Counted from the first letter of the stretch, positions 6,011 through 36,280 are shown. The stretch: DNA of 36,980 nucleotides from an uncultured Elstera sp. (GCA_903931835.1 CAIZEE010000611.1:1-36980), one strand, 5' to 3'. Notes: generated by a model not told the origin, from the sequence alone. Program-made: numbers and translations.

Positions 6011-6025
6011 GAAGGACCGCCTGGA

Positions 6026-6877: not shown

Positions 6878-7429
6878 ATGGAAAACTGCCCTGCGCTTGT
6901 TCTGAATGCCGATTTCCGGCCGCTCAGCTATTTCCCCCTCTCGCTGTGGTCCTGGCAGGAAGCGGTCAAGGCTGTGTTCCTTGGCCGCGTCAACATCGTG
7001 TCTGAATATGACCGGACCGTGCGCTCCCCCACTTTTGAGATGCGCCTGCCCAGCGTCATTGCGCTGAAGGACTACATCCCGACCGCGCGGCGCCCGGCCT
7101 TCACCCGCTTCAACGTGTTCCTGCGCGACCGGTTCGACTGCCAATATTGCGGTGACGGCTTTCCGACACATGAACTGACCTTCGACCACGTCATCCCGCG
7201 CTCACGCGGCGGGCGCACCTCTTGGCACAATGTCGTCACGGCCTGCGGCGACTGCAACCTCGCCAAGGCCAATATGATGCCGGCCGAAGCCAAGATGTTT
7301 CCGATCCAGGCGCCACGCCAGCCGACCACCTATGAGCTGCAGGAAAACGGCCGGCGCTTCCCGCCGAATTTCCTGCATCAAAGCTGGCGCGATTTCCTGT
7401 ATTGGGACGAAGAGCTGGAAGTTGGCTGA
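6878..7429 (+). CDS. HNH endonuclease
   Basis: CQYCGDGFPTHELTFDHVIPRSRGGRTSWHNVVTACGDCN. Confidence 0.93.
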   Translation: MENCPALVLNADFRPLSYFPLSLWSWQEAVKAVFLGRVNIVSEYDRTVRSPTFEMRLPSVIALKDYIPTARRPAFTRFNVFLRDRFDCQYCGDGFPTHELTFDHVIPRSRGGRTSWHNVVTACGDCNLAKANMMPAEAKMFPIQAPRQPTTYELQENGRRFPPNFLHQSWRDFLYWDEELEVG

Positions 7430-7432
7430 TCT

Positions 7433-8041
7433 TTAGGCGTTCTGTGCGAGCACGCGCGCGACGATCGGCAGCTTTCCGACCGTCTCGGCCAGATGCTTCA
7501 GCTTCGGCATGGATTCCGGTACGCCGTCAGGCAGCCAGCTTAGCAGCATGACCAGATAGAGATCCGCCGCTGTGAATGTTTCGCCAAGCAGGTAGGGCGC
7601 CAATACCGCCTCCATCACGCTGAGATGATGGTCGATATGCAGCAGCGCCTGCTGTTTGACATCAGCCGCATGCGCGTCCCCGCCCGCCGAGTAGCGATGC
7701 GCGTAATAGACGCGCAAGATCGCCTCGTAGACATTGGCCGACAGAAATACCATCCATTGCAAATACTTGGCGTGCGCCGAACTGCCGATCGTCGGCGACA
7801 ATCCTGGATTTGTGTTGGTCAGATGCAGGCAGATCGCGGCTGACTCCAGCACGATCGTTCCATCTGGCAGCACCAGCGCCGGAATCTTGCCAGACGGGTT
7901 GATCCGCTTGTAGTCAGGTTGGGCGGCTTGTTCCTGGCTAACCCATACGACGTCATGGGCAATGCCGAAGGTTTCGAGCAGAAATTGAACGACGATCGAA
8001 CCGCCGCCTTGCCGCCCATAAAGTGTGTAGCGATCGGACAT
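7433..8041 (-). CDS. glutathione S-transferase family protein
   Basis: N-terminal thioredoxin-like fold signature (GKIPALVLPDGTIVLESAAICLHL) and GST-C region FTAADLYLVMLL. Confidence 0.9.
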   Translation of the reverse strand: MSDRYTLYGRQGGGSIVVQFLLETFGIAHDVVWVSQEQAAQPDYKRINPSGKIPALVLPDGTIVLESAAICLHLTNTNPGLSPTIGSSAHAKYLQWMVFLSANVYEAILRVYYAHRYSAGGDAHAADVKQQALLHIDHHLSVMEAVLAPYLLGETFTAADLYLVMLLSWLPDGVPESMPKLKHLAETVGKLPIVARVLAQNA

Positions 8042-8202
8042 CGTTGAGGCTCCTCATGTTATGCGAAGGCTGACCGTTCGCCGAAGCCCCGATTGGCCGG
8101 TCGACAGGACCGCCTGTTTCACGTTAAGGCTTTGACCTGGAGCTTATCGGCTCGGTGCTCACAGGGCAATCGAGCGGGCGCCGGTTTATGGCAAGAGGTG
8201 AA

Positions 8203-8985
8203 ATGACCCAACCCCCGATCAAGCTTGTCGTCGCAACCCCGTGTTTTGGCGGCATGGTTACACATCATTTTATGGTGTCGGTGCTCGATCTGCAGCGGGC
8301 GACCGCAAGCTGGGGCTGGAAGATGCATTTTACCTGCATCGGCGGCGATGCGCTGGTGCAGCGGGCGCGCAATACGTTGGTGACGCTGTTTCTGAATGAT
8401 CCGGACGCGACGCATCTCATGTTCATCGATGCGGATATCGGGTTTCAGTCGGCCCAGGTGCGGCGCTTGCTCGCCTTCGACAAGCCGCTGGTCGGCGGCG
8501 CCTATCCGATCAAGCATATCGATTGGAACGCCGTCCGCGAGAGGGTTGCAGACGGCACGTCGCATCTTGAGGCGGCCTCGCTGCAATACGTCATCGGCAT
8601 GCCGGAAAGCGGTGCGCCGTATGAGGAGGTCGACGGCTTCGCCAGCGTCGACCATGTCGGTGGCGGGTTCATGCTGATCCAGCGCGCGACCTTGCTGGCG
8701 ATGATCGAGCATCATCCTGAACTGACATACATGACGGCGTTGGCCGGTCAGAACCGGGTCATCCCGGAGGATGAGAAGAACGTCGCGCTCTTCGAGAGCC
8801 TGATCGATCAGAAGACGCGCCGCTATTTGCCAGAGGATTACAGTTTCTGCAAACGCTGGAAGGACATGGGCGGTGAGGTCTGGATCGATCTGCGCAGCAA
8901 GCTGACCCATGTCGGAGCATATGCGTATAACGGCGATCTCGACAGTCTGACCCGCGTTCCGGGCGTCATGCCGGACGAGGCCTGA
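8203..8985 (+). CDS. putative glycosyltransferase-like protein
   Basis: [37 protein letters not shown] (DxD-like); ATG 8203 preceded by AGAGG; ORF-track start is 8155. Confidence 0.65.
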
Positions 8986-9541: not shown

Positions 9542-11698
9542 ATGGATCTCAATCGCCGCGATTTCTTCACCCGCAGCGCGCTCGCGACGGGTGGCTTGGT
9601 CATCAGCGTTGCGTTGCCCTCACTGCTGCGCGGGCCCGGTAGTGCCAAGGCCGCAACGCCTGTGGGCCTGGCGCCAAACGCCTTCGTGCAGATCGGCACC
9701 GACAACACGATCACGCTGATCATGCCGCATACCGAGGTTGGGCAGGGTATCTATACCTCGGCCGCGACGCTGCTTGCCGAGGAGTTGGAAGTCGGCCTCG
9801 ACCAGGTGACGTTGCTGGCGGCCCCGCCCGACAATGCGAAATACGCCGATCCATTCCTGGGCGAGCAGGCAACCGGCGGGTCGACATCGATCCGCGCCGA
9901 TTGGCAGCGTCTGCGCGCGGCTGGTGCCGCTGCTCGGATGATGCTGATCCAGGCGGCCGCTCAGCGCTGGCAGGTTCAGCCGGCCAGCTGCCGTGCCGCA
10001 CTCGGCGTCGTTTATAACGATGCCGGCAAGCATCAGGCGACCTATGGGCAATTGGCCGATGCGGCCGGCAAGCTCGCCGTACCCGATAAGCCTGTGCTGA
10101 AGCAGCCCTCGGAATGGCGGCTGATCGGCAAGTCGTTGAAGCGCATCGACACACCGTCCAAGGTCAATGGCACGGCGGTATTCGGCATCGACGTCAAGGT
10201 GCCGGGTATGAAGATCGGCACGGTCGCGGCCAGCCCCGTCATCGGCGGCACGGTCAAGAGCTTCGACGAGGCGGCGGCGCGCAAGATTCCGGGCGTGGTC
10301 GATGTCGTGAAGCTCACCGATGCGGTAGCCGTGATCGGCGATCACATGTGGGCGGCGAAGCAGGGTCTTGAGGCGCTGCGGGTCCAGTGGAATCCGGGTC
10401 CCAACGCCGGCATGTCGACCGACCAGCTGATCAAGGCGCTCGACGCGGCATCGCTCGGGCCGAAAGGCGTCGTCGCCAAGGACGAAAACAACGCCCCGGC
10501 GGCGATCAAGGGCGCCAAGACACAGCTTTCGGCAATCTATCAACTGCCGTTCCTGTCCCATGCGCCGATGGAGCCGATCAATTGCACGGTGCATGTGCGT
10601 CCCGATGGCTGCGACGTCTGGGTCGGCACGCAGGTGCCTGTACGCGCGCAGCAAGCCGCCGCCGAGGCTACCGGATTGCCGCCCGAGAAAGTCACCATCC
10701 ACAACTACATCATGGGCGGTGCCTTTGGCCGGCGGCTCGATATCGACAGCATCACCCAAGCAGCGGCATTGGCGAAGCAGGTTTCCTATCCGGTCAAGTT
10801 CATCTGGACCCGGGAAGAGGATATTCAGCACGACCTGTTCCGGCCCTATTACTACGACCGCGTGTCTGCGGGTCTCGACGCCAATGGCAAGCTGGTCGGC
10901 TGGACGCATCGGGTGACCGGGTCATCGGTGCTGGCGCGCTGGGCGCCGGCCTTCTTCAAAAAGGCGGGCGATTTCGACGCGATCGAGTGCGCGGCGGAGA
11001 CGCCCTATGAGGTGCCGGCGGCTTTTGTCGATTACGTTCAGGCCGAACCGCAAGGCGTTACGACCGCCTGGTGGCGGGGTGTCGGGCCGACGCATAACGT
11101 CTTCGTCGTCGAAAGCTTTGTCGACGAATGCGCGCTTGCCGCCGGCAAGGATCCGATCGAGTTCCGCCGGGCGATGTTGGGGAAGAACCCGCGCGCTCTC
11201 GCGGTGCTGAACCTGGCGGCGGAGAAATCCGGTTGGGGCAGCAAGCTTCCGGCCGGTGTCGGTCGCGGGGTGTCGCTGCAATTCGCCTTCGGCTCCTATG
11301 TCGCGCATATCCTCGAGGTCGAGGTGACGGCGTCGTCGGAGATCAAGCTGCGTCGGTCGGTGGTTGCCATCGATGCCGGCCAGCGGGTCAATCCGGACAC
11401 GATCGAGGCGCAGATCCAGGGCGGCGTGATCTTCGGCCTGACCGCAGCGATGTATAGCGAGATCCATCACAAGGATGGTCGCGTGGTGCAGAGCAATTTC
11501 AACGATTACCGCATGCTGCGCATCGACGAGGCGCCGAAGATCGAGGTCTATCAGATCGAGAGCTCGGAAGCGCCCGGCGGCATCGGCGAAACCGGCACGG
11601 CGGCCTCGGCGGCCGCCCTCGGCAACGCCATCCATGCTGCGACCGGCAAGCGATTGCGAACGCTTCCCTTCGGCAATGGCGCCCTGGTGTCAGCATGA
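9542..11698 (+). CDS. xanthine dehydrogenase-family molybdopterin-binding subunit (isoquinoline 1-oxidoreductase beta-like), TAT signal
   Basis: NRRDFFTRSALATGG TAT motif; PHTEVGQGIYTSAATLLAEEL; GAFGRRLDID; GGIGETGTA. Confidence 0.94.
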   Translation: MDLNRRDFFTRSALATGGLVISVALPSLLRGPGSAKAATPVGLAPNAFVQIGTDNTITLIMPHTEVGQGIYTSAATLLAEELEVGLDQVTLLAAPPDNAKYADPFLGEQATGGSTSIRADWQRLRAAGAAARMMLIQAAAQRWQVQPASCRAALGVVYNDAGKHQATYGQLADAAGKLAVPDKPVLKQPSEWRLIGKSLKRIDTPSKVNGTAVFGIDVKVPGMKIGTVAASPVIGGTVKSFDEAAARKIPGVVDVVKLTDAVAVIGDHMWAAKQGLEALRVQWNPGPNAGMSTDQLIKALDAASLGPKGVVAKDENNAPAAIKGAKTQLSAIYQLPFLSHAPMEPINCTVHVRPDGCDVWVGTQVPVRAQQAAAEATGLPPEKVTIHNYIMGGAFGRRLDIDSITQAAALAKQVSYPVKFIWTREEDIQHDLFRPYYYDRVSAGLDANGKLVGWTHRVTGSSVLARWAPAFFKKAGDFDAIECAAETPYEVPAAFVDYVQAEPQGVTTAWWRGVGPTHNVFVVESFVDECALAAGKDPIEFRRAMLGKNPRALAVLNLAAEKSGWGSKLPAGVGRGVSLQFAFGSYVAHILEVEVTASSEIKLRRSVVAIDAGQRVNPDTIEAQIQGGVIFGLTAAMYSEIHHKDGRVVQSNFNDYRMLRIDEAPKIEVYQIESSEAPGGIGETGTAASAAALGNAIHAATGKRLRTLPFGNGALVSA

Positions 11699-12903
11699 GG
11701 GCGCTGATCGCGGCAATGGCAGGGGTGGCGCTCGCTACCCTGCCGCAACTTGGATTCGCGGCCGAGACGGGCATGGGCAAGGGCGAGTATCTCGCCCGGG
11801 CTGCCGATTGCGTAGCCTGCCATACGGCACCCGGCGGCCAGCCTTTCGCGGGTGGTCGAGCCTTCCAGACGCCGTTCGGCGTGATCTACTCGCCCAACAT
11901 CACGCCCGATGCCAAGACCGGTATCGGCGGCTATAGCGACGAGGAATTCATTTCAGCGCTGCAGAAAGGCGTGGCGCGGGGCGGCAAGCATCTCTATCCG
12001 GCGATGCCCTATTCCTCCTACACGCTGATGACGCGCGAGGATGTGCTGGCGGTGAAGGCCTATATCATGGGGCTCGCACCCGTCTCGAACCAGGTGGCGG
12101 AGGACAAGCTCAAATTCCCCTATAATCAGCGCGCGCTGATGATCGGCTGGAATATGATCAACAACTCCGACCATCGCTTCGAACCCGATGCGAAGCAGAG
12201 TGCGGAATGGAATCGCGGCGCCTATGTGACTGAGGCGCTCGGCCATTGCCAGCAATGCCATACGCCGCGCAATTTCATGCAGGGGCTGAAATCGTCATCC
12301 GCCTATGCCGGCGCGCCGATCCAAGGCTGGAACGCCTATAATATCACGAGCGACAAGACCGCCGGCATCGGCGGATGGAGCGATGCCGATCTGGCCTCGT
12401 ACCTGTCGACCGGTCATGCCGATGGTCACGGCTCGGCTTCCGGCCCAATGGCGGAGGCGATTGAGAACTCGCTGCGCTATCTGACGCCGGACGATATCAA
12501 GGCGATGGTGACCTATCTGAAGACGGTACCGCCGCAGCCGGGCAACGCTGCGCCTGCCCCGGTATCCGCCAAGCCCGACATCGCGCTCGGCGGTAAGATC
12601 TTCGAAGAGGCCTGCCAATCCTGCCACCGCGCCAACGGTACGGGATCGGCGACGCCCTATGCCGCCTTGCTCGGCAGCCCGAGCGTCACGGACCCGAGCG
12701 GCACCAATCTGGTGGCCGTCCTGCTCTATGGCAGCCATATTGATACCGCGACTGGGGCCAAGGCCATGCCCGGATTTGCGCATGGCTATACCGACGTGGA
12801 ACTGGCGGCCGTTGCCAATTACACGATTGCGCAGTTCGGCAAGGGAACCGGCGCTGTCACCCGCGAGGCGGTGGCGAAGGCAAGAAGTACCGTAACCGAC
12901 TAA
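11695..12903 (+). CDS. exported tri-heme cytochrome c (dehydrogenase cytochrome subunit-like)
   Basis: Signal peptide; three CxxCH motifs CVACH, CQQCH, CQSCH; ATGA overlap with preceding gene. Confidence 0.93.
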   Translation: MRALIAAMAGVALATLPQLGFAAETGMGKGEYLARAADCVACHTAPGGQPFAGGRAFQTPFGVIYSPNITPDAKTGIGGYSDEEFISALQKGVARGGKHLYPAMPYSSYTLMTREDVLAVKAYIMGLAPVSNQVAEDKLKFPYNQRALMIGWNMINNSDHRFEPDAKQSAEWNRGAYVTEALGHCQQCHTPRNFMQGLKSSSAYAGAPIQGWNAYNITSDKTAGIGGWSDADLASYLSTGHADGHGSASGPMAEAIENSLRYLTPDDIKAMVTYLKTVPPQPGNAAPAPVSAKPDIALGGKIFEEACQSCHRANGTGSATPYAALLGSPSVTDPSGTNLVAVLLYGSHIDTATGAKAMPGFAHGYTDVELAAVANYTIAQFGKGTGAVTREAVAKARSTVTD

Positions 12904-23795: not shown

Positions 23796-24605
23796 TCAGT
23801 CCCGTACCCGCCGCCATGGCGATGTCGCGCGGTGGCGCCAGGGCGTGGCGACATACTCGATCACCAGCAGGGTGACGAAGGATCCGACGCCGATCAGGGT
23901 CATCAGCAGCATCGCGCCGTAAACACCCGGCGTGTTCATCTGGGCGTTGGCGGAGAGCAGATAGGTGCCGAGCCCCATTCGCGACGAGGCGGTCCATTCG
24001 CCGATCACTGCACCGGTAACGGCGTAGGATGCCCCGATCTTGAGTCCGGAGAAAAGCGGGCCGAGGCAGGCCGGCAGCTTGACGATCAGGAATGTGCGCA
24101 GCCGTGTGCCGCCGAGCAGCCTAGCCAAGTTGATCTGATCCTGATCGACCTGCGCCAAGCCATCCATGACATTGACCACAACCGGGAAAAACACGATCCA
24201 GCCGACGACGATCAGCTTCGGCGTCATGCCGAAGCCGAAAATGATCACCAGCGGGGCCGCGATACCGACGATCGGAATTGCCTGTGAGGTTACCAACGCC
24301 GGATAGATGAGGCGGCCCATCAACGGCAACTGCGACATGAAGACGGCGAGCAGGAAGCCGACTGCGGCGCCGATAATGTAGCCGCTGACAGTCTCCTTGA
24401 AGGTCTGCCACAGGAGTTCGCGGACCATTGGGCCGTTATTGAACAGCATCTCGATGGTCGCGGCCGGCGTCGGCACGACGAAGCGCGGCACCTCGAACAT
24501 CACGACCGCCCCTTGCCACAGCACGCCGATTAGCAACAGGGCGACGATCCAGAAACAGATCTGGGCGATGACCGGATGGCGGATGATAGCCTTCGATAGG
24601 GTCAT
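23796..24605 (-). CDS. ABC transporter permease (SsuC/ThiX-like)
   Basis: Multi-TM BPD_transp pattern, QAIPIVGIAAPLVIIFGFGMTPKLIVVGWIVFFPVVVN. Confidence 0.93.
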   Translation of the reverse strand: MTLSKAIIRHPVIAQICFWIVALLLIGVLWQGAVVMFEVPRFVVPTPAATIEMLFNNGPMVRELLWQTFKETVSGYIIGAAVGFLLAVFMSQLPLMGRLIYPALVTSQAIPIVGIAAPLVIIFGFGMTPKLIVVGWIVFFPVVVNVMDGLAQVDQDQINLARLLGGTRLRTFLIVKLPACLGPLFSGLKIGASYAVTGAVIGEWTASSRMGLGTYLLSANAQMNTPGVYGAMLLMTLIGVGSFVTLLVIEYVATPWRHRATSPWRRVRD

Positions 24606-24620
24606 GTCGCGGTCACTCTC

Positions 24621-25370
24621 CTAATCATAGAGCAGCTTCAGCACATCGGCCTTCAACGCCATGAAGGGCGCGGATGCCATGCAGTCCACCTCTCTCGGGC
24701 GTGTCAGATTGACGTCGAGGATACGCGCGATCCGCCCCGGGCGGGGCAGCATGACGACGACGCGGTCGGCCAGGAACAGCGCTTCGTCAATGTCATGCGT
24801 CACGAACAGGATGGTGCGTTTCGTCTCGCCCCATACCTGCAGCAGCCAGCGCTGCATGGTGAAGCGTGTCTGGCTGTCGAGCGCGCCGAACGGTTCGTCG
24901 AGCAGCATCACCTCGCGCCCCGCCGCGATCGTGCGCATCAGCGCCACGCGCTGGCGCATGCCGCCCGACAGAGCGCTCGGATAGTGATTTAGGTAACCGC
25001 CGAGGCCGTAATGCGTCGCCAGCGCCGCCGCCTTGTCCTTGTCCGCTCGTGTCGCACCCCGCGTCAGCGATGCGCCGAGCACGATATTGTCGAGCGCCGT
25101 CCGCCAGGGCAGCAGCAAATCCTTCTGCAGCATGTAGCCGACCTGTCCCGGCTTGCCGATGACATCCTCAGCCCCAAGTCTGATCGAGCCGCTATCGACC
25201 TTGAGCAGGCCTGAAACGGCGTTGAACAGCGTGCTCTTGCCGCAGCCCGATGCGCCTAGCAGACAGACAAATTCACCCTCGGCTATATCGAGGTTGATAC
25301 CGTCCAGCACCTGATTATCACCGAAGCGATGGGACAGGTTGGTGATCGATAGTTTCGGGTGGGAGTTCAG
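24621..25370 (-). CDS. ABC transporter ATP-binding protein (SsuB/ThiZ-like)
   Basis: Walker A GASGCGKST, ALSGGMRQRVALMR, Walker B EVMLLDEPFGALDSQ. ORF track starts at GTG 25310, but conserved N-terminus KLSITNLSHRFGDNQ extends upstream to CTG 25370. Confidence 0.94.
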   Translation of the reverse strand: MNSHPKLSITNLSHRFGDNQVLDGINLDIAEGEFVCLLGASGCGKSTLFNAVSGLLKVDSGSIRLGAEDVIGKPGQVGYMLQKDLLLPWRTALDNIVLGASLTRGATRADKDKAAALATHYGLGGYLNHYPSALSGGMRQRVALMRTIAAGREVMLLDEPFGALDSQTRFTMQRWLLQVWGETKRTILFVTHDIDEALFLADRVVVMLPRPGRIARILDVNLTRPREVDCMASAPFMALKADVLKLLYD

Positions 25371-26068
25371 AGCATCCTCACAGCGCCGTCATCGAAATAA
25401 TACACCTCTTCCAACTTGACCGCGTAGCGGCTGCCCGGCCGGGCGATATGCGGCTCAAAAGTGAAATAGGACACGCTGCCGAGCGTTCGATCGTTCTTGC
25501 CGTCCATCAGGATGAAATCGGCCGGTTCCTTTTCCAGGCTGTGCCCGTAATTGTCGAGCAGGTCGAGATTCTCGAACCCGGCATCCTGAACCAGCGCGTT
25601 CATTTCGCGGTAAATCTCGGCGAAAGTCGTGGTCGGCGTGACGCGTTTGACGAAGGCGGCATGCAGCATCGCCTCCAGCGCCATGCCGGCCGCCTGTTCC
25701 TCGCCCGCCTGTTCCGCCGTCACCAATTTCCCGCGTTTCAGGAAATACGACCGGGCGCAGTCGCCCAGGCAATCGCCGATGCGCGGGCCGACATCGATGG
25801 TAATCATCTCGTCCTCGCCGAACGGGATCTCGGCCGGCTTGTAGCGATGGTCGAACACCGAATCGCGTAACCGATCGCCGGCCAATACAAAGGCCGGCGT
25901 ATTGCCCCAATAGCCCGATGCGCCATGGGCCAGCATCAAACGGTGGCATTCCTGGTGCAGCAGCGCCTCCGTGGCGCCCGGCACGATATAGCGCGTGATT
26001 TCGGCCAGAACCGACCGGGCGATGTCCTGCGCGGCCTTGAATGTCTCGAGTTTAGTGGGGACGGTCAT
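25367..26068 (-). CDS. compact M24-family metalloenzyme
   Basis: TIDVGPRIGDCLGDCARSYF, NYGHSLEKEP, FEPHIA, LEEVYYF - metal-ligand motifs of the pita-bread fold. Confidence 0.9.
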   Translation of the reverse strand: MTVPTKLETFKAAQDIARSVLAEITRYIVPGATEALLHQECHRLMLAHGASGYWGNTPAFVLAGDRLRDSVFDHRYKPAEIPFGEDEMITIDVGPRIGDCLGDCARSYFLKRGKLVTAEQAGEEQAAGMALEAMLHAAFVKRVTPTTTFAEIYREMNALVQDAGFENLDLLDNYGHSLEKEPADFILMDGKNDRTLGSVSYFTFEPHIARPGSRYAVKLEEVYYFDDGAVRML

Positions 26069-26072
26069 GGCG

Positions 26073-27044
26073 TTACCTCGGCAGGAATTCGTTGGTGTAG
26101 TACGTCGAAAGCGGTTTGACAGTCGGGATCAGCCCAGCCTCCTTCATGCCGTCAGCCAGGACTTGCCAGGACGCGTCGGTCTGACGCAAAAACGCGCCCG
26201 GATCGCCGAGATAGGGCAGGGTGGCGACCCAGCCGACATCGTCATAAAGCGGGCTATCGACCAGCGGATAGGTCTCGGCGAACAGTTGTGCGGCCTCTTT
26301 CGGATGGGCGACACTCCACTCCAGCGCCTCATTCGTTGCCGCGAGCCATTCTCTGGCATCGCTGCCATGCGCCTTCAGCCAGCCAGGCGTGGCGGTGAAC
26401 GACCAGACGGGGATGTCGGCGATACCGATACGATCGGCGCATGCCATGCTCGGCTCTTTGCCGAGGGCGACGACCGACTCGGCGATCGCGAACGGGGCGG
26501 TGTTGGTCGAGAAATCTATGCGGCCGGCGAGCATCAGCGGCATGTCCTCGAACTGGGTGATGATCTGTTCGACATCGTCGGGATTGGTGATGCCGGTCCG
26601 GTCAAACAGCATGCGCATCATCACGGCCGACCAGGAATCAGAGAAGATGCCGATCTTCTTGCCCTTGAGCGAGGTCAGGTCCACCGCATGCCCGGGCCGG
26701 GCTATTACGCACCAGCTATTATGCTGGTCGTAATTCGCGATGGAGATCAGCGGCAGGTCAATATCCGCAGCGAATACGACATCGGTGCGCGGCTCCATCG
26801 CGATCTCGGCCTGGCCAACCGCCAGCATGCGCGCCGTGGTCTGCGCATCGGGCGGCAACACGATCGATACATCCAGCCCGTGCTTCTCATAGAGGCCATG
26901 CTTCTGGCCGACCACGATCGGGATCAGCAGAAACCCCTGAACCGGCCAGAAATAGACGAGGCGGACAGGATGCAGGGGCTCGGCTTCGGCCGTCTGCCCA
27001 ACGGTGCAGAGAAAAATCAGGAGCAGGCCGATCGCTGCCCGCAT
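26073..27044 (-). CDS. ABC transporter substrate-binding protein, NMT1/THI5-like
   Basis: Signal peptide MRAAIGLLLIFLCTVGQTAEA; PVRLVYFWPVQGFLLIPIVVGQKHGLYEKHGLDV; start ATG 27044 in an ATGA overlap. Confidence 0.92.
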   Translation of the reverse strand: MRAAIGLLLIFLCTVGQTAEAEPLHPVRLVYFWPVQGFLLIPIVVGQKHGLYEKHGLDVSIVLPPDAQTTARMLAVGQAEIAMEPRTDVVFAADIDLPLISIANYDQHNSWCVIARPGHAVDLTSLKGKKIGIFSDSWSAVMMRMLFDRTGITNPDDVEQIITQFEDMPLMLAGRIDFSTNTAPFAIAESVVALGKEPSMACADRIGIADIPVWSFTATPGWLKAHGSDAREWLAATNEALEWSVAHPKEAAQLFAETYPLVDSPLYDDVGWVATLPYLGDPGAFLRQTDASWQVLADGMKEAGLIPTVKPLSTYYTNEFLPR

Positions 27045-27820
27045 CAGGCGTCTTTGACGAGCCAGGCGACCGCGTTGCGCCACAGAGTGGCGTAGGCCGG
27101 CCAGTTCACAAAATCCCTCGGCGCCCAGTGCGGCCCAATATCGGACGTCCAGGCGATCGTGCGTCCCTCGCCCCATGTGCCGGCGACGAGAAGCGGATGG
27201 CCGCCATTCTCATCTGGCAAGCGGGCCAGAACCTGACAGTCGGGCCGATCCCGCACGACCACCTCATTCGCCCCCAGCAGCACTGGCCAGGATGCCGGCA
27301 TGTCCCGCAGCACCGGATGGTCCGGACCCGTGACCACGGCCTGAAACCCCTCCGGCACCTCCAGCCGGTCGTCATAGGGCAGGCAGGTGACGGGCAGCGC
27401 CTGCTCGACCGCCGTGCGTCCCCAGCGCGCTTTACCGTCAATTCCTTGAAAGGTCAGGTAGCCGCCGATCATCATCAGCCCGCGGCCCTTCGCTACCCAG
27501 TCGCGCAACAGGGTCAGGCGATTAGGTGCTGGCTTGCCGTGCAGCCACACGGCAGGCGGTAACAGCAGCGTGTTCGCCCCGATATCGGACAACAGAACCG
27601 CGTCATAGGCGTCGAGTGCCGCCATCGTATCGGGGAATTTCTCCGCGCATTCGTGGTTCGGCATGTGGTCGACTTGGATGCCGGTGCCGTCAAAGGCCCG
27701 CAGGAAATCGCCAGCACCGGAGTGATAAGAGGCGCTGTAGAACTGGTCGAAGCCTTTGACATGGGTGGCAGAGCTGACCCAGGTCTCCCCCGCCAGCAGG
27801 ATTTTCCGCGTTTTACCCAA
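27044..27820 (-). CDS. glutamine amidotransferase-like protein (PF07090-type)
   Basis: KTRKILLAGETWVSSATHVKGFDQFYSASYHSGA, DAYDAVLLSDIGANTLLL, GRGLMMIGGYLTFQGIDGKARW. Likely TTG start 27820 after GGGAGGAG; ORF track starts at GTG 27850. Confidence 0.85.
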   Translation of the reverse strand: MGKTRKILLAGETWVSSATHVKGFDQFYSASYHSGAGDFLRAFDGTGIQVDHMPNHECAEKFPDTMAALDAYDAVLLSDIGANTLLLPPAVWLHGKPAPNRLTLLRDWVAKGRGLMMIGGYLTFQGIDGKARWGRTAVEQALPVTCLPYDDRLEVPEGFQAVVTGPDHPVLRDMPASWPVLLGANEVVVRDRPDCQVLARLPDENGGHPLLVAGTWGEGRTIAWTSDIGPHWAPRDFVNWPAYATLWRNAVAWLVKDA

Positions 27821-27830
27821 GATCTCCTCC

Positions 27831-28550
27831 CTAGATGCCCGGACAGGCACTCGCCTTGGTTTCGGGCAAAGGCGCCCAGCCCTGATCGGTCAGGCCGAAT
27901 AGCGGTATATGTCCCAGCGACCGAACCAAACTTGGCATGCCCGAATCGATCCGCGCCAGCTCGCCAAACCAGTCCCACCCTTCGGTCAGAACGGCGGTGA
28001 TGGCGACGATCGTTGCATTGGCCCTCTGCAACAATCGGATTGCCGCCGCCATGGTGGCACCGGTATTCAGCACATCGTCGACCACCACGACGCGCTTGCC
28101 ATTCACGCGTTCGAGCAACGCCGGATCGAGATAGAGGCGTTTGGTCTGGTCGGGGCTGGTGGAGGAGACGACGGCTTCCGACAGCGCATCGTCGTACCAG
28201 AATTTTCGGCTGTGGCCCAAGGCGACATAGTCGGCAAGGCCGATCGCTTCGGCCATCGGTCTTGCATAGATAAGGCCCAGGGTTGGTATGCCGACCACTG
28301 CTTCGGGGGCCGCTTCGCGCGCTAAGTCGGTCATGCGCACCGCGATGTTCCGTTCAACCTCAAAGCTGGTTTGGTTGGACATCAGCAGAGCGATGGCCTT
28401 TTCGCCGCCCGGCAGTGGGACCAGCGGCAAGGTCAGGTGACAGCCATCCTTCAGCCGCACCGGATAGTGGCCGATGAAATGCGCTGGCTCGGCCTCGCCG
28501 AATACGCCAGCAGGCGACCAGTCAACGCGATAAGGCGACGGCAAAGTCAT
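27831..28550 (-). CDS. type I phosphoribosyltransferase-like protein
   Basis: PRPP motif RVVVVDDVLNTGATMAAAIRLL; ATG at 28550 (MTLPSPYRVDW). Confidence 0.85.
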   Translation of the reverse strand: MTLPSPYRVDWSPAGVFGEAEPAHFIGHYPVRLKDGCHLTLPLVPLPGGEKAIALLMSNQTSFEVERNIAVRMTDLAREAAPEAVVGIPTLGLIYARPMAEAIGLADYVALGHSRKFWYDDALSEAVVSSTSPDQTKRLYLDPALLERVNGKRVVVVDDVLNTGATMAAAIRLLQRANATIVAITAVLTEGWDWFGELARIDSGMPSLVRSLGHIPLFGLTDQGWAPLPETKASACPGI

Positions 28551-28555
28551 GATGG

Positions 28556-29299
28556 TTATCCCGCGATGGCTATTGGTTGTTCGGCGGACCAATCGTCGCC
28601 CGATCCTGGGCGACAGAAACCGGGTGGAAAATGCTGGGCGACCAGATCAAAGCAATGTCGATCGATCCGGCCAAGGTTGACATGGAGCACGCGCGAGCGC
28701 AGGCCGCGTCCACGATCGAACAGATCGGTTGCGAGCAGCGTCTTGATCGACAGTCCCGTCATTTCCGCGACATGGGCGCGGCCGCCATTCTCCGTCTTCT
28801 CGCCAATGGTAAAGATCTCCACCACCTTCCCGCCGGCGAGGGTGATCGCCTCGGCCAGGGCGACCAGCGTGCCGCCGGTACTGACCAGATCGTCGACCAA
28901 CAGGATCTTATCGTCCGGCCTGACACCGTTCAGGTAGAGCTGGGTCGAGCCCTCCGCCAGATATTCATTGGCGATGCCGACCGCGACTTCACCCGGTGCG
29001 CCTGACGGCGTCCAGCGGGCCAGTGTGCGCGGCAGGCGATATTGGCGCAGGATATCGGCGGTGATCATGGCGCCGCGATCTTCCTCCCCCACGCCCAGCG
29101 TCGCGTCTGCGCCATGTTCGATATGCAGGCGCGCGAGCAGACAGATCGCCTCAGACAAGGCATGGGAGAGCGGCGGGATGTTGTCCGTCACAGCGGTCGG
29201 GAAAAAGGAGAAGGTTCGTCCGCCCTTGCCGGAAACCTCGTTGGTCGCGCGGTCGTCAAAATCGCCGACGACCAGTTTGATTGCCTCGACGATCGCCAC
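28556..29299 (-). CDS. second type I phosphoribosyltransferase-like protein
   Basis: PRPP motif KILLVDDLVSTGGTLVALAEAI; GTG start in track, frame is open upstream to CTG 29368 (MEIKIQIPPTESS...). Confidence 0.83.
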   Translation of the reverse strand: MAIVEAIKLVVGDFDDRATNEVSGKGGRTFSFFPTAVTDNIPPLSHALSEAICLLARLHIEHGADATLGVGEEDRGAMITADILRQYRLPRTLARWTPSGAPGEVAVGIANEYLAEGSTQLYLNGVRPDDKILLVDDLVSTGGTLVALAEAITLAGGKVVEIFTIGEKTENGGRAHVAEMTGLSIKTLLATDLFDRGRGLRSRVLHVNLGRIDRHCFDLVAQHFPPGFCRPGSGDDWSAEQPIAIAG

Positions 29300-29380
29300 G
29301 CAGTCGTCGGGGACGCTGGGCTCAGCAATGGAACTTTCCGTGGGCGGGATTTGAATCTTGATCTCCAGTGAAACGGCAGA

Positions 29381-29392
29381 TAAACCGGTTAA
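29381..29392. promoter_or_regulatory. candidate LacI-family operator TAAACCGGTTAA
   Basis: Near-palindrome with central CG (AACCGGTT core) in the divergent region between the PRTase operon and the lacI-family gene. Confidence 0.5.
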
Positions 29393-29466
29393 CTAAAGCT
29401 CCCTTGGCGCCGCCGGCCTTGTCAACTCGAAACCTTGTCACAGGGGCGAGTTTAGCAGCGAAAGCG

Positions 29467-30486
29467 ATGAAGATGGCCGAGAAGGAAACCACGATCCAGG
29501 ACGTCGCCGATCTGGCCGGCCTGTCGAAGGCTGCCGTCTCGCGCTACCTCAACCACAAGATAACCCTGCCGCCGAAAACGGTGGAGCGGATCGAAGCCGC
29601 CATTCAGACGCTGGGATTTCGCCGCAACCTCTTGGCGCAGCGGCTCAGCACCGGGCGCAGTGAGACGATCGGCCTGGTGGTGCCTGAAATCTCCAACCCG
29701 TTTTATGCCGAAATGGCGGAGGGGGCGGAGGATGAGGCGGCAAGGGCGGGATATAGTCTGATCCTCGGCATAGGCCGCAACGACGTGGATCGCGAGATCG
29801 AGTTCCTGCGCTGGCTCGATACGCATATGGTCGATGGACTGCTGTTTGCCTCCAACCGCCCGGATGACGGGTTGCTGCGCGACCAGATGAACCGCTACCG
29901 ACCGGTCATCCTGTTGGATGAGGATATTCCGGGTACGGCTGTCACCAAGATTTTCTGCGACAACCGGCAAGGTGCTTTTGAGGCCGTGCGGCATCTGACC
30001 GAACACGGCCATCGCCACATCGCCCATGTCACCGGCCCGGCCCCGTTGATGAGCGTGGGGGAACGCTTGAGCGGCTACCGGGCGGCGCTGATGGAGGCGG
30101 ATATCCGGTTCCGTGACGAACTGGTGTTCCACGGTTTCTTTAGCCGCGAGTTTGGTCAGCAGGCCGCCTCCCTCATCCAGGCATTGCCTGCTCGCCCGCA
30201 TGCGATTTTTGCGGCCAGCGACTATATCGCCATCGGCCTGCTGGAGGGGTTGCGCGACGCCGGCATCCGCGTGCCCCAGGACTTATCGATCGTGGGATTC
30301 GATGATATCTCCTCGGCCGATCTTGTAACGCCGCGCCTGACGACGATCCGCCAGGACGCCGAGGCAATGGGGCGGCAAGGGGTGCTGCAGTTGCTGGCGA
30401 CGATCAACGATCCGGGGATGGCGGTGCGGCAAACGCGGATTCCGGTGAGTTTGACGGTACGGGATTCGGTGATCGTTCGGGCGTAG
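29467..30486 (+). CDS. LacI-family transcriptional regulator
   Basis: TTIQDVADLAGLSKAAVSRYLNHKITLPPKTVERIEAAIQTLGFRRN; periplasmic-binding-like effector domain to SIVGFDDISSADLVTPRLTTIRQD; probable ATG 29467 (track start GTG 29368). Confidence 0.95.
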   Translation: MKMAEKETTIQDVADLAGLSKAAVSRYLNHKITLPPKTVERIEAAIQTLGFRRNLLAQRLSTGRSETIGLVVPEISNPFYAEMAEGAEDEAARAGYSLILGIGRNDVDREIEFLRWLDTHMVDGLLFASNRPDDGLLRDQMNRYRPVILLDEDIPGTAVTKIFCDNRQGAFEAVRHLTEHGHRHIAHVTGPAPLMSVGERLSGYRAALMEADIRFRDELVFHGFFSREFGQQAASLIQALPARPHAIFAASDYIAIGLLEGLRDAGIRVPQDLSIVGFDDISSADLVTPRLTTIRQDAEAMGRQGVLQLLATINDPGMAVRQTRIPVSLTVRDSVIVRA

Positions 30487-30618: not shown

Positions 30619-31152
30619 CTATGCCGGCGGCTTCCAGCGTCGCAATGGGGTCGTAGCCTCGTAACCTTGCGGCGAGGGATAGCAGATGAGTTCGACAAGC
30701 ACGCCGAAGGGCGTCTGAACAAAACAGACTCGATTACCCCCGCCCCCTTCTATGCCGGGGAGGAGCCATGGCTCACTGAGCGCTCGGCCACCCGCAGCGA
30801 CTAATCGTTCGAGTGCGGCGTCGAGATCGTCGGCATAGACGGCGATGTGCTGCCAGCCGTAATCCGAAGCGCGCGCGGCCGGTCGCTGCCCATCTGCTTG
30901 ATATTGGAAGAGTTCGACGCCCGGGCCGGTCCCGAGCTTGTACATCCTGATCGCGGTTAGCCGGGTTCCGGGCGGGACATTGAGTGCTGCTTCAAATTGC
31001 GGACCTGCGAAGGGCGGATCGGACGGGCCATGCAGTTGATAAATTAGTTGGGCGCCGAGCCCTTCCTCAAGGAAGCGCCCGGCCGCGTCGATATCCGGCA
31101 CGGAAAGCCCGACATGATCGAGGCCACGAAACTTGACCGGCTCCAACGCCAT
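30619..31152 (-). CDS. VOC family protein
   Basis: RGLDHVGLSVPDIDAAGRFLEEGLGAQLIY; RVCFVQTPFGVLVELICYP. Confidence 0.9.
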   Translation of the reverse strand: MALEPVKFRGLDHVGLSVPDIDAAGRFLEEGLGAQLIYQLHGPSDPPFAGPQFEAALNVPPGTRLTAIRMYKLGTGPGVELFQYQADGQRPAARASDYGWQHIAVYADDLDAALERLVAAGGRALSEPWLLPGIEGGGGNRVCFVQTPFGVLVELICYPSPQGYEATTPLRRWKPPA

Positions 31153-31166
31153 CGCTCACTCCCTGC

Positions 31167-32432
31167 TTAGTTGCTCCATTCCACATCGAGCCCCTGAAGC
31201 CCCGTCACGGTCATCAAAGGCAGATAGTGCCGCTGGAAACCGGGTACGACGCGAAGCGTCGGCAGACGACGGTAGAGCTCCTGGATGGCTATCCGCGCCT
31301 GCAGCCGGGCAAGGCCGTTGCCGATGCAGCTATGCCGGCCAAAGCCGAAGGCCAGATGCCGGGATGCATTCACCCGGCGAACATCGAAGCGCTCTGATTG
31401 AGGGAAAACCTCGTCGTCATGTCCGCCGGCGGCGGATAGCAGATAGACCAGCGAGTTTTTGGGTATCGTGACGCCGCTCATTTCGACATCGACCGTGGTA
31501 ACCCTGAAATTACCCGGAACCGAGCCGCGCATGCGCAGCCCCTCTTCAACCGCGTTGGCGGTTAGGGATGGGTCGGCGATGATCAGGTCGCGCTGGTCGG
31601 GCCAATCGGAGAAATTCTGCACGAGATGCGCGATCGTGTTGGCGGTCGTGTCGTGACCGGCACCGATCAGGGAAATCAAGTGGCGGATCACCGCACTTCG
31701 GCCAATTGACGGTGTCCCGTCCGCCTCATGCGCCAGTAGCATGGCCGAGATCACGTCGTCGCCCGGCTCGCGCTGACGCAAATCGACATAATCCGACAGA
31801 AATCGGTTTGCCTCAGCCAGACGCGACCAGCGCGCGTGCAATTCCTCAGGCGGAACGACGCGCAATTCGGTGTCATTGGCGGCACCCAGAACGCGCGGCG
31901 TCAGCAGGAAGAAGAAATCCTCGCTCCATTGGCGGTAATCCGGCTTGCGCTCAGGCGGGACGCCCAGGATTTCGACGATCGTGTTCATCGTCAGCGGCAC
32001 GGCGTACTCCGCCATGACATCGATCCGGCCACGATGAGCAAACCCGTCGATCAGCTGATTGGCATGAGCGCGGACGACATCCCCCATGCGCATAATGACG
32101 GCGGCCAGGAAGCCCTGCGCCATCGCATTACGGTGCCGCGAGTGATCGGGCGGATCGATCGTGATGATGATCTCTTCGACGCTGAGATCGGGAACCAGCG
32201 GTGCCAGATCGGCGGGCGGGCGAATGAAGCCGGTCGCACGCGATGAAAACCTGTCGACGTCCTTCAGTGCTTCCGTCAAATCCTTGTATCGGGTGACCAC
32301 CCAGCAATCGAGTGGCGCATAGTGAAAGACCGGGCTCTCCCGCTGCAAGCGCTTCAAGGTCGGGGTCGGGTCTCTGAGATAGTCCGGGGAGAGTGGCGCA
32401 AATCCGGACGACGCTTCCGCCGTTGTGCTCAT
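31167..32432 (-). CDS. cytochrome P450
   Basis: I-helix GAGHDTTANT, K-helix EGLR, heme-binding LAFGFGRHSCIGNGLARLQ. Confidence 0.96.
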   Translation of the reverse strand: MSTTAEASSGFAPLSPDYLRDPTPTLKRLQRESPVFHYAPLDCWVVTRYKDLTEALKDVDRFSSRATGFIRPPADLAPLVPDLSVEEIIITIDPPDHSRHRNAMAQGFLAAVIMRMGDVVRAHANQLIDGFAHRGRIDVMAEYAVPLTMNTIVEILGVPPERKPDYRQWSEDFFFLLTPRVLGAANDTELRVVPPEELHARWSRLAEANRFLSDYVDLRQREPGDDVISAMLLAHEADGTPSIGRSAVIRHLISLIGAGHDTTANTIAHLVQNFSDWPDQRDLIIADPSLTANAVEEGLRMRGSVPGNFRVTTVDVEMSGVTIPKNSLVYLLSAAGGHDDEVFPQSERFDVRRVNASRHLAFGFGRHSCIGNGLARLQARIAIQELYRRLPTLRVVPGFQRHYLPLMTVTGLQGLDVEWSN

Positions 32433-32468
32433 TATGGTTTGGTCCTCCGGCTGGTGAAGGAGTTCGCT

Positions 32469-33311
32469 TCAGAGTTCGACCGTTCCGATATACTGGCTGG
32501 CGCTGAGCTCGCCCGAGATATCGCGGGTGCCGTGGTCTGGATGGCTGATGCGCAAGGTGAACTTGCCGGCATTTGGGGCCAGCCCGTCGATTTTGAAGTC
32601 GCCGTAGAGATCGCTCTCAGCCTTGATGCGGTCGGCGCGATCAGCGAGCTCCAGCTCAATCAGCGCGCCCTCGACATTCTCGGCCAGGCCTTGGCTGGTC
32701 CGGGTCGACACATTGCCGCCGAGAAAGCAGGTCTGCGTCTTTCCCAGGCCGCGATAATACACGCGCGGTTTGGTGTTGAGTTCGGGCGACAGCACGCTCA
32801 AGTCCTCGTCATCGGCCTTCGCCTTCATCGCCGCATCGGAGATTTTGACGGAAATCAGCGCGCCGGTCGGGCAAGCCTGAACCGGGCGCGGTTCTATCCA
32901 GCCGTCATCCAGCAGATGTGCGTCGAAGATCCAATGCTGCGGCAGTTGCTGTGCCTCATTCCAGAAGATCGCACCGTAAGGGCAGCTATCGACAACATCC
33001 TTGCGGCCCTTGGCCTTTGCCGGATCGATGACAACGATGCCGTCGGGGCGCTTGGCGACCACGCCGCCGCCCGCTTTGATGCAGGGTGCATCATCGCAGT
33101 GATTGCAGGTGCGCGGGACATAGGTCACGTCGACCATCGGCTGGTCGCCGCGGATATGCCGATCAATCGTGAACCAGCCATGGCCTTGTTGCGGCTGGGC
33201 GGCGGCGTAGCCCGGGAAGTCGTTGCCGACATACTCGTCATTCACCGCCATCACGCAGTTGTTGCAGTTGTTGCATTTCTCGACATCGACAATCAGGTTC
33301 CAGCGGTTCAT
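32469..33311 (-). CDS. [4Fe-4S] electron-transfer beta subunit of DMSO-reductase-family molybdoenzyme (transhydroxylase beta-like)
   Basis: CNNCNNC, CNHCDDAPC, DSCPYGAIFW, QACPTGAL; C-terminal Cna-B-like segment SDLYGDFKIDGLAPNAGKFTLRISHP. Confidence 0.9.
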   Translation of the reverse strand: MNRWNLIVDVEKCNNCNNCVMAVNDEYVGNDFPGYAAAQPQQGHGWFTIDRHIRGDQPMVDVTYVPRTCNHCDDAPCIKAGGGVVAKRPDGIVVIDPAKAKGRKDVVDSCPYGAIFWNEAQQLPQHWIFDAHLLDDGWIEPRPVQACPTGALISVKISDAAMKAKADDEDLSVLSPELNTKPRVYYRGLGKTQTCFLGGNVSTRTSQGLAENVEGALIELELADRADRIKAESDLYGDFKIDGLAPNAGKFTLRISHPDHGTRDISGELSASQYIGTVEL

Positions 33312-36280
33312 GCGACCTCCTTCGCGACATGCGTCCATCGCTGCACTTCGACCAGGCATGAATTGGGCGCGATCCCGTCAGCGGTTTTCGACATGGTGCG
33401 GGGCGGGGTGAGTAGGTTGAGGCAGCCGCCGCGATCCACCTGGCCGTCCGGCGTGTCGATCAGATCGTAGACGGCGCAGGATTCGAATGCCTTGACCACG
33501 CCTGGCGCCATCAAGGGGGCTATATCGACGGCGCAGATCACGGCACCGCGGTCGTTATAGACTTTGACCAGATCGTGCTGCCGAAGGCCGCGCTTCGCCG
33601 CGTCCTCCTTGCCCATCCGCAAGATCCAATAGTGGTAGCCGTCGACCAGGATGCGGTGATCTTCGACCGAGTTGACCTGGCTATCGGCGCTGCCGCCATA
33701 GGTGTGGAAACTATAGGTCGGATGCACCGTGATCAGTTGCAGGCTGAATTTCTTGAACAGTGCCGCGCTATGGCTGCCCTCCCAGGACGGGATGTAGCGG
33801 TTGACGGCGGGGCGGTCGGGATCGTTCTGCTCGATCCTACGCAGGGTCGAGGGCACGAATTCGAACTTCGATGATTGCGTGCCAAGACCCTGGCCGACCG
33901 TGCCCGCGTATTGCGACGGCAAGGGGTTCATTTCCGGCGTGTCCTTGGCACGCCCTTCGGCGAACCAGCGCATTTCCACCGGCGTGCGCATGGTGTCCGG
34001 GTCGGGCGGAATGACGTGGTAGCCCTTGCGCAGGAATTCCTTCCAGCTGACGATTTTCGACAAATCCGATCCGTCGAAGATGCGCTTGCACCAGGTCAGC
34101 TCGTCGCATCCACCCTCGGAGAACATGGCGCCCGCGCCAAGCCTGGTCAGAATATCGAGGAAGATCTGATAGTCCGATTTGGATTCGCCCAGCGGCTCGA
34201 TGCATTTGTGCTGCATCACGACGACGCGGTGATTGAGCTGGTTCTGGCTATGGGTAACGAAGCCCGAGCAATTGCCGGATTCCGCGATATCCCACCGCTC
34301 GAAACTGGTGCAGGCCGGCAGGATGATGTCGGCGAACTCGGTCTCGTTTTCCTTCAGGATCGATTGGTTGACGACGAATTCGAGTGAGGGATGCCGGTAG
34401 GCCTCGATATAGCGCTGCGCGTTGACGACCGTCCCCAGCGATGATCCACCGAAGCGATACAGCATGTGAATGTTCGAATATCCGGGAAGCGGGTATTGGT
34501 ATTCTGGGAACTGGCCCTCAAGCGACATGCCGTCCCACAGATGCCCGGAACACTTGCCCTCGATGATGCCTTCGGGAAAATGCTGGCGCGGGATGATCTG
34601 CTTGACCGTGTTCATGGTCAGGATATGCGGCATGCGCTGATAGTTGTGCAGTGCTGCGGCGGTGTTGACGACGTCGCCGGAAATCCCGCCATCGGCATAG
34701 CCCGGGAAGTAGAAATTGAGGTCCATCGGCGTGCCGAACTGAAGATTGCCGAAATTGACACCCGGTTTGCCCCAGCCCTGCATCGCCATCATCTGTACCA
34801 TGCAGCGCGCCCATTGCGCGCCGGTTGCCGATCGACACGCGCCGCCGAGACCAATGCCGATACCGCCGGCGGCGAGATAGGTTTTGCGCTTGCCCCAGGC
34901 GCGCGCCAAGCTACGCACATCCTTCGCCGGGATGCCGGTCTCCGCCTCCTGCCATTCCGGCGTCTTCGGCACGCCGTCCGAGACCCCCAGAAGATAGTCG
35001 CGCCATTCGTCGAAGCCGGTTGAGTTCTTCGCGACATAGTCCTGGTCGTAGAGCCCCTCCAGCACCCACTGATACATGATGGCGATCGCCAGTGCCGGAT
35101 CAGTTCCAGCCTTCACCGGCAGCCATTTGCCGCCGAGAAACTGTGCCGTCTGATTGAAATTCGGATCGATATGCACGAACTCGATGCCGAGATCCTTAGC
35201 CCATAGCCGCCGCTGGCTACCTTCGCCGCCGCCATAGAGTCCGCCGGTGCTCTCAGGATCGCTCGACCAGAAGACCACCATCTCGGCCTCCTTAAGACAG
35301 TCTTCGAGCGTGCCGTAAGGGCTGGCGCAACCGAGGCGCAGATTATTGCCGAAATGATGCTGTGCGCCCCAATACCAGCCCTCCCAACTGATCGGGCTGA
35401 ACGCCATGCGTGTGGTGCCGATCAGATTGGAGAAGCGGATGAGGGCCGAGAGCCAGTAATTGATATTGCCCCATTGCTGATGGGCCGCGTGGAGGACCGA
35501 TATGGCGCCGGGCCCATGCTCGCGCTTCATCCGCTGGATTTCGCCCGTCACAATATCGAGCGCTTCTTCCCAGCTGATGCGGACATAGCCTGAGATGCCG
35601 CGGTTCTGCACATTGCGTTCGCCGTTCGGATCGAAATCGACCCGTTTCATCGGGTAGAGCAGGCGCTGCTCGGAATAGACCAGCGATTTCAACGTCAGGG
35701 CGTGGGGGCTAACCGTTGCCTGCCGTTTCGGCTGGAAGCTTCGGCCACGCGCTTGGATGGTCCAACTCGCCGCGTCGGTCGCGTCAAGATCGACCGGCGT
35801 GGTGCGGATGATCCGCCCACCTTTGACATAGACATGGACCGGCCCGCCATTGGTCAGGTTGGTATAGCGCTTCGTGCCGTCGCGCATGCGCGTGCCGTAT
35901 TTCCAGCCGGCCGATGTCACCATGTTCATGAGTTGGCCGAACCACACCAGACAGTCGTCCCGGCCCGACGCCACGACCTTGAAGTTTTTCAGCGCGTCGA
36001 TGACCACGCCGTAGTCAGGATTGGGCTTCATCATCGCCAGCGCGGTGTCGACCGTCTTGAAGGTCATCGCGGCATCGGGCTTTGGATGAAAGCCGGGTCG
36101 GCCGCTCACCCGCCCGTCGCGAACGATCAGATGCCGCGCGATGCTGCGGTCGCGCAGGCTGATCTGCAGCACCATGTCCTTGGATTTCAGCTTGTCTTTG
36201 ACCGCTGCGTGTTTCCGGGCCGCCTGGCCGATGATCAGCGGCAGAGCTTTGAGGAGGGAGCTCAAGACTATTTTCTTCAT
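33308..36280 (-). CDS. molybdopterin oxidoreductase large subunit, pyrogallol/phloroglucinol transhydroxylase-like, with N-terminal SCP2-like extension
   Basis: LLYPMKRVDFDPNGERNVQNRGISGYVRISWEEALDIV, SPISWEGWYWGAQHHFG, VVFWSSDPEST, C-terminal MGD-binding domain SFHTYGG..RMGKEDAAKRGLRQHDLVKVYNDRG; ATGA overlap with beta subunit. Confidence 0.88.
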   Translation of the reverse strand: MKKIVLSSLLKALPLIIGQAARKHAAVKDKLKSKDMVLQISLRDRSIARHLIVRDGRVSGRPGFHPKPDAAMTFKTVDTALAMMKPNPDYGVVIDALKNFKVVASGRDDCLVWFGQLMNMVTSAGWKYGTRMRDGTKRYTNLTNGGPVHVYVKGGRIIRTTPVDLDATDAASWTIQARGRSFQPKRQATVSPHALTLKSLVYSEQRLLYPMKRVDFDPNGERNVQNRGISGYVRISWEEALDIVTGEIQRMKREHGPGAISVLHAAHQQWGNINYWLSALIRFSNLIGTTRMAFSPISWEGWYWGAQHHFGNNLRLGCASPYGTLEDCLKEAEMVVFWSSDPESTGGLYGGGEGSQRRLWAKDLGIEFVHIDPNFNQTAQFLGGKWLPVKAGTDPALAIAIMYQWVLEGLYDQDYVAKNSTGFDEWRDYLLGVSDGVPKTPEWQEAETGIPAKDVRSLARAWGKRKTYLAAGGIGIGLGGACRSATGAQWARCMVQMMAMQGWGKPGVNFGNLQFGTPMDLNFYFPGYADGGISGDVVNTAAALHNYQRMPHILTMNTVKQIIPRQHFPEGIIEGKCSGHLWDGMSLEGQFPEYQYPLPGYSNIHMLYRFGGSSLGTVVNAQRYIEAYRHPSLEFVVNQSILKENETEFADIILPACTSFERWDIAESGNCSGFVTHSQNQLNHRVVVMQHKCIEPLGESKSDYQIFLDILTRLGAGAMFSEGGCDELTWCKRIFDGSDLSKIVSWKEFLRKGYHVIPPDPDTMRTPVEMRWFAEGRAKDTPEMNPLPSQYAGTVGQGLGTQSSKFEFVPSTLRRIEQNDPDRPAVNRYIPSWEGSHSAALFKKFSLQLITVHPTYSFHTYGGSADSQVNSVEDHRILVDGYHYWILRMGKEDAAKRGLRQHDLVKVYNDRGAVICAVDIAPLMAPGVVKAFESCAVYDLIDTPDGQVDRGGCLNLLTPPRTMSKTADGIAPNSCLVEVQRWTHVAKEVA

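Follow-up and report, generated by a model that had tools for sequence, protein, structure and literature searches.

We analysed a window of 36,980 nucleotides from an uncultured Elstera sp. (GCA_903931835.1, contig CAIZEE010000611.1) and observed that its minus strand carries a compact operon for a two-subunit molybdenum enzyme related to the pyrogallol transhydroxylase (TH) of Pelobacter. The gene order on this strand is the large subunit, of the molybdenum-bis(pyranopterin guanosine dinucleotide) type (33308..36280, 990 aa), a small, ferredoxin-like subunit (32469..33311, 280 aa), a cytochrome P450 (31167..32432, 421 aa; PF00067), and a single-domain VOC protein resembling methylmalonyl-CoA epimerase (30619..31152, 177 aa; PF00903/PF13669). 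The ATG of the small subunit at 33311 overlaps the TGA of the large subunit (ATGA), with AAGGAGG just upstream, and a longer open reading frame (ORF) beginning at 33359 is a less probable start. The gap between the small subunit and the P450 is about 37 nt, and that between the P450 and the VOC protein 14 nt. These coordinates bear out the four-gene arrangement given in a preliminary description of this DNA. Genes were called with a codon-usage model; longest-ORF calling masks the small subunit under an antisense ORF. The GC content of the operon is 0.610 and that of the remaining contig 0.614. The E-values reported below, the intact frames, the conservation and the matching base composition exclude a chance or artefactual origin. 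The source assembly (774 contigs, 93% complete, 5.2% contaminated) contains two heme-copper oxidase genes, and aerobic respiration is therefore likely.

Residues 138-983 of the large subunit (PF00384, PF01568) matched the large chain of Pelobacter TH (4v4c_A) with an E-value of 6e-282 (941 bits), as against 6e-61 (210 bits) for the second-best solved relative, dimethyl sulfoxide (DMSO) reductase. The AhtL-like domain 1, PF21423, scored 90.2 bits (E 6e-26; curated cut-off 27). An AlphaFold model of the large subunit, with a mean predicted local distance difference test score (pLDDT) of 80.7, again had 4v4c_A as its top Foldseek match (E 8.6e-93, versus 3e-52 for DMSO and trimethylamine N-oxide reductases), and the small subunit matched 4v4c_B with an E-value of 5e-61. 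The likeness of both subunits to Pelobacter TH, claimed earlier, was thus upheld, and the large subunit, when checked against other DMSO-reductase clades, fell with TH by Pfam, alignment, Foldseek and tree. The catechol dehydroxylases (Dadh, Hcdh, Cadh) are likewise molybdenum-bis(molybdopterin guanine dinucleotide) enzymes acting on a phenolic ring, but belong to another clade, which lies closest to acetylene hydratase and apart from TH (PMC7028382).

The active-site motif was located by alignment with TH at residues 291-306 (...SPISWEGWYWGA; 35363..35410). The large subunit contains SWEGWYWG, including the molybdenum ligand Ser298 (TH Ser175), and shows neither the Cys motif of the FS0 cluster nor a twin-arginine signal, as had been described. 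His144, Asp174, Tyr404 and Tyr560 are the residues that Messerschmidt reportedly assigned to the TH substrate site in 2004. This set was found to be incomplete in the window: His144 and Tyr404 are kept (His267 and Tyr528), but Asp174 is replaced by Ile297 and Tyr560 by Phe. These two substitutions make pyrogallol an improbable substrate, and the assignment of the enzyme to the transhydroxylase family in the wide sense (PF21423), outside pyrogallol transhydroxylase proper, is well supported. The preliminary description had overlooked the substitutions, as it had a domain at residues 1-137 and the loss of an Fe-S cluster, both described below.

Residues 1-137 of the large subunit (35870..36280) have no counterpart in Pelobacter TH, and no Pfam family (such as PF02036) matched them, even at an E-value of 10. 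We modelled this region with AlphaFold from an alignment of 65 relatives, leaving out plasmid-derived rows, and obtained a pLDDT of 87 and a predicted template modelling score of 0.75. When the model was compared with the PDB using Foldseek, all 34 matches at E<=1e-3 were SCP2-type proteins or carriers of SCP2 domains. The best were the SCP2 domains of the alkylsulfatases SdsA1/Pisa1, UbiJ-SCP2 and AF1534, and rabbit and human SCP2 were also found; the TM-scores were mostly 0.57-0.59 of the query for UbiJ-SCP2 and 0.56 for AF1534, with a probability of 1.00. According to the model, residues 1-137 have an SCP2-like lipid-carrier fold, for which lipid binding is a prediction. We refer to the fused enzymes as SCP2-TH. 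In SdsA1/Pisa1 the SCP2-like domain is also part of a catalytic chain, one that acts on alkyl-chain substrates, although these enzymes are sulfatases of a very different catalytic fold, with the domain at the opposite chain end. SCP2 proteins bind lipids, and in ubiquinone synthesis phenol-lipid hydroxylation is served by the SCP2 proteins UbiJ, which binds the lipophilic phenolic intermediates of ubiquinone for the hydroxylases, and UbiT, which is proposed to bind them for O2-independent hydroxylation (PMC6747719). Unlike the window enzyme, UbiJ and UbiT are separate proteins, and their hydroxylases are not molybdenum enzymes. A scaffold for phenol (trans)hydroxylation that carries a fused SCP2 domain suggests that the substrate is a lipophilic phenol. 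The 'polyhydroxylated or hydrophobic ring compound' suggested earlier is still plausible and is strengthened by this domain.

We then considered the small subunit. By homology with the ferredoxin pattern of NarH/DmsB, we take the Cys ligands of the TH small subunit to be 13, 16, 19 and 149 for FS1, 23, 126, 129 and 145 for FS2, and 68, 71, 76 and 109 for FS3. In the window, the four FS2 positions are occupied by V, W, D and P, and the eight Cys of FS1 and FS3 are intact, so that the three [4Fe-4S] clusters (12 Cys) of pyrogallol TH are not all present. Across 103 SCP2-TH proteins, the CxxC position of FS2 reads WxxD in 79, WxxE in one and CxxC in 21, and all eight FS1/FS3 Cys are kept in 100. 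The loci behind these counts were picked by similarity to the window and are biased to the best matches, and the proportions given here and below are therefore not population estimates. The alphaproteobacterial L102/L188, L189 and L190 read CWDC at the FS2 positions, with C23 and C145 kept and W and D between, and L169, from the Rhodocyclaceae group, reads CWDG; these small subunits are possible intermediates in the loss. The lack of FS2 breaks the chain between FS1 and FS3. This favours a redox-neutral reaction, or else one in which electrons exit at FS1 alone. The C-terminal domain of the small subunit, previously called Cna-B-like, had no Pfam match, but it does align with its counterpart in the TH small subunit.

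The Pelobacter acidigallici enzyme (AthL/AthS, PgtLS; 4v4c) rearranges hydroxyl groups on plant phenols in the absence of oxygen, making phloroglucinol from pyrogallol with 1,2,3,5-tetrahydroxybenzene as co-substrate. The window enzyme shares with it the fold, the molybdenum domains, PF21423, the Ser ligand, the equivalents of His144, Tyr152 and Tyr404, the FS1 and FS3 ligands and the C-terminal domain of the small subunit, and the absence of an export signal. It differs in the SCP2 domain, in FS2, in positions 174 and 560, and in its setting, with P450 and VOC neighbours in a genome with terminal oxidases.

The phylogeny was estimated with the columns of the N-terminal domain removed. SCP2-TH formed one clade (support 100/99), apart from the short TH that lack the SCP2 domain. 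The members without FS2 are a clade within it (99/98), Pseudomonadota as far as named, and the loss of FS2 is a single change on the tree. Nested in this clade is a subclade (100/98) in which Asp174 became Ile, also by a single change; it contains the window, whose sister (100/99) and closest relative (74%) is L033. Phe at the Tyr560 position was seen in the window, L033, L046 and L057, and outside the subclade also in L063 and L196. The equivalents of His144, Ser175 and Tyr404 were invariant in 86 SCP2-TH rows. FS2 is kept in anaerobe lineages; the clade with FS2 includes Bacillota, Chloroflexota, Thermodesulfobacteriota, Myxococcota, Actinomycetota, Acidobacteriota and one unplaced proteobacterial metagenome-assembled genome (MAG).

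A scan of genome contigs gave no fewer than 540 related stretches. Evenly drawn samples of genomes were also searched. PF21423 scored above its cut-off in a single genome among 399 Pseudomonadota, namely the one containing the window, and in 12 out of 250 from the family around L051; among 385 genomes of the window's class, nine, again counting the one with the window, matched the entire protein strongly. Plasmid-borne copies (L025-L031; NZ_CP015090, NZ_CP083373, NZ_AP023183, NZ_CP156687 and others) occur in Salipiger, Ensifer, Rhizobium, Paraburkholderia, Burkholderia and Cupriavidus. In Paraburkholderia, Caballeronia, Rhizobium and Ensifer, SCP2-TH is annotated only as a generic molybdopterin oxidoreductase, and in the literature we found no description of an SCP2-fused or aerobic TH. 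The view that this type of enzyme is limited to anaerobes does not hold, as SCP2-TH genes are present in many Pseudomonadota.

To see which genes accompany the enzyme, we counted the genes within 8 kb of SCP2-TH. The P450 of the window has the heme-Cys motif FGFGRHSCIG and the I-helix AGHDTT, and its nearest solved chains include 7x53, CYP125/CYP142-type enzymes and vitamin D hydroxylases. Among 86 SCP2-TH loci, only a single distant P450 (~30% identity) was observed, and close relatives of the VOC protein adjoin the small subunit at only two further loci, L171 and L172 (36-39%); at L188-L190 a different single-domain VOC gene follows the small subunit. The P450 and the VOC protein were therefore rejected as conserved partners of SCP2-TH, and the linkage on which the preliminary description had relied is not conserved. 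That description had also regarded the VOC protein as possibly of a ring-cleavage fold. A two-domain type I extradiol dioxygenase, with a His-His-Glu site in its C-terminal module, was rejected by the length of 177 aa, a single domain, and by the nearest structure, methylmalonyl-CoA epimerase (1jc4, E 1e-5); a single-domain VOC protein is indeed present, and a one-domain dioxygenase is a possible reading of it.

A different set of neighbours was seen in the sister group. Of the 53 loci that lack FS2 but retain Asp174, 35 have a two-domain VOC protein (extradiol dioxygenase), 40 have an FAH-family hydrolase and 29 have an AMP ligase. Each of the three was absent from all 19 loci with FS2, and the 14 rows of the window's subclade had two FAH genes and one two-domain VOC gene. 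His161, His218 and Glu269 (the His-His-Glu iron triad) together with His250 and Tyr259 were kept in 37 of 37 two-domain VOC proteins. We take these to correspond to the residues of homoprotocatechuate dioxygenase, in the type I extradiol pattern; the matches to such enzymes are distant. Within the window's subclade, L033 has a ferredoxin reductase directly upstream (549-1796) and an SDR and a Rieske oxygenase downstream (10600-12000), and L057 combines SDRs, a P450 and a LigB-type dioxygenase in one locus. No conserved redox partner was found adjoining SCP2-TH. At L083, which has FS2, cyclase, cupin, BKACE, SDR and 3HCDH genes adjoin the enzyme, and a similar gene set has been described for anaerobic phloroglucinol degradation (PMC10470551); SCP2-TH with FS2 can thus lie in a complete operon of the phloroglucinol type. 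A tie of SCP2-TH to O2-dependent aromatic metabolism is thus real, through the extradiol dioxygenase and FAH genes of the sister clade, but not through the P450 and VOC genes of the window.

These observations suggest, with a probability that we put at roughly one half, that the window enzyme is cytoplasmic, independent of O2 and probably redox-neutral, and that it acts on a lipophilic phenol as a molybdenum (trans)hydroxylase or isomerase. The SCP2 domain would bind the tail of the phenol and pass its ring to the molybdenum site, where the Mo-oxo centre (Ser298 ligand, His267, Tyr528) would add or move a ring hydroxyl without O2. With FS2 missing, the small subunit would offer no continuous electron wire, and the reaction would probably be redox-neutral, either an isomerisation or the transfer of a hydroxyl. 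The extradiol dioxygenase and the FAH-type hydrolase would then take over the product in the sister clade. The substrate of the window enzyme probably differs from that of the sister clade, because of the two substituted residues and the different neighbours, and the P450 and the VOC protein may act on the same compound as the window enzyme.

By analogy, long-chain alkylresorcinols are a candidate substrate class for the sister clade and would explain its neighbour genes: after hydroxylation, the extradiol enzyme would cleave the ring, the FAH-type enzyme would hydrolyse a C-C bond, and the fatty acid set free would be activated, in parallel to the classical orcinol route. We also consider, more tentatively and with less confidence than for the enzyme itself, a widespread and undescribed aerobic route in which an O2-independent molybdenum enzyme with a lipid-carrier domain and an interrupted Fe-S chain moves or adds a hydroxyl on a lipophilic phenol (e.g. 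a long-chain alkylresorcinol-type lipid) and O2-dependent enzymes finish, these being extradiol dioxygenase and FAH in most of the clade and P450/VOC or Rieske-type enzymes in the window's subclade. The undescribed oxidative route proposed earlier is plausible for the clade, although evidence other than the P450/VOC linkage carries it.

Several points weigh against this assignment. The extradiol/FAH module is absent at the window, and the 93%-complete source genome had only a weak extradiol relative. The contrast between anaerobes and aerobes is not independently replicated, since it goes back to one change in the tree. Loss of FS2 is by itself no proof of redox neutrality, as FS1 alone could pass electrons to a partner, and the SCP2 domain may serve assembly or membrane contact instead of substrate delivery. 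We are also aware of no SCP2-TH enzyme whose activity, metal content or expression is known.

The most serious alternative, though we consider it unlikely, is an enzyme of the resorcinol-hydroxylase type, with water-derived hydroxylation of an (alkyl)resorcinol and a net oxidation, in which FS1 would pass the electrons to an acceptor in solution or in the membrane. The extradiol and FAH partners would suit a classical aerobic orcinol-type route. RhLS of Azoarcus anaerobius, whose RhL is closely related to PgtL and is likewise Ser-coordinated, hydroxylates resorcinol, a phenol, without O2 (PMC10100899). It has, however, been described as an electron donor in anaerobic respiration, and was compared with the window enzyme by description only. 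A net oxidation requires an electron exit, but FS2 is lost, FS3 is stranded and a conserved redox partner does not adjoin.

More doubtful still is an ordinary TH acting on pyrogallol itself in low-oxygen periods, with the P450 and the VOC protein as accidental neighbours. Most catalytic residues are retained, the P450/VOC arrangement is not conserved, and relatives with FS2 lie in phloroglucinol-type operons; yet Asp174 and Tyr560 are substituted in the window, the extra SCP2 domain speaks for a lipophilic substrate, and no phloroglucinol-pathway gene set was seen adjoining the window enzyme. Alternatively, the TH scaffold may have drifted to a reaction on non-aromatic compounds, such as dehydration or S/N-oxide chemistry. 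This would fit those two substitutions and the ease with which the DMSO-reductase superfamily changes reaction, but is very improbable given the invariant His144, Ser175 and Tyr404 and the aromatic-degradation genes of the sister clades.

To our knowledge, transhydroxylase chemistry is known from only a few anaerobes, and we know of no clear reason why a redox-neutral enzyme has an Fe-S chain. A large clade in which the middle cluster was lost once and the others were kept is a natural experiment on the purpose of that chain. Should the substrate prove to be a lipophilic phenol, this clade would mark a degradation route that joins hydroxylation without O2 to ring cleavage that depends on it. 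The bacteria concerned live in soil or with plants and include Paraburkholderia, Caballeronia, Rhizobium and Ensifer.

In Moorella, a Dehalococcoidia MAG and a Peptococcaceae MAG, a single contig encodes both short TH and SCP2-TH, with ~1.4 to 13 kb between them; such pairs are seen at L136 (4571-7105 and 14429-17455), L134/L135 and L137. This co-location suggests paired roles on short and lipophilic phenols. L170 encodes (5673-8249; G491) an 858-aa relative of short TH (37%) with the FS2 Cys kept, possibly a resorcinol-hydroxylase-type enzyme, and the same genome has an SCP2-TH. In several betaproteobacteria (L032, 13419-16945; L041, L081, L168, L173), pairs of YCF48/BNR and MMPL transporter genes, which are common in degraders of hydrophobic compounds, adjoin SCP2-TH.

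Elsewhere in the window, a LacI-type regulator (29368..30486, plus strand; PF00356, PF13377) is convergent with the operon, and its link to the operon is putative. Another molybdenum enzyme, unrelated to the first, is encoded on the plus strand at 9542-12903: a molybdenum subunit of the xanthine-oxidase family (MoCoBD), with a cytochrome c protein after it. The minus strand at 23796-29299 carries two phosphoribosyltransferases, a GATase1-like protein, an NMT1-type binding protein, an M24 peptidase and parts of an ABC transporter; together they may serve to take up and salvage a nucleobase-like compound, as one operon.

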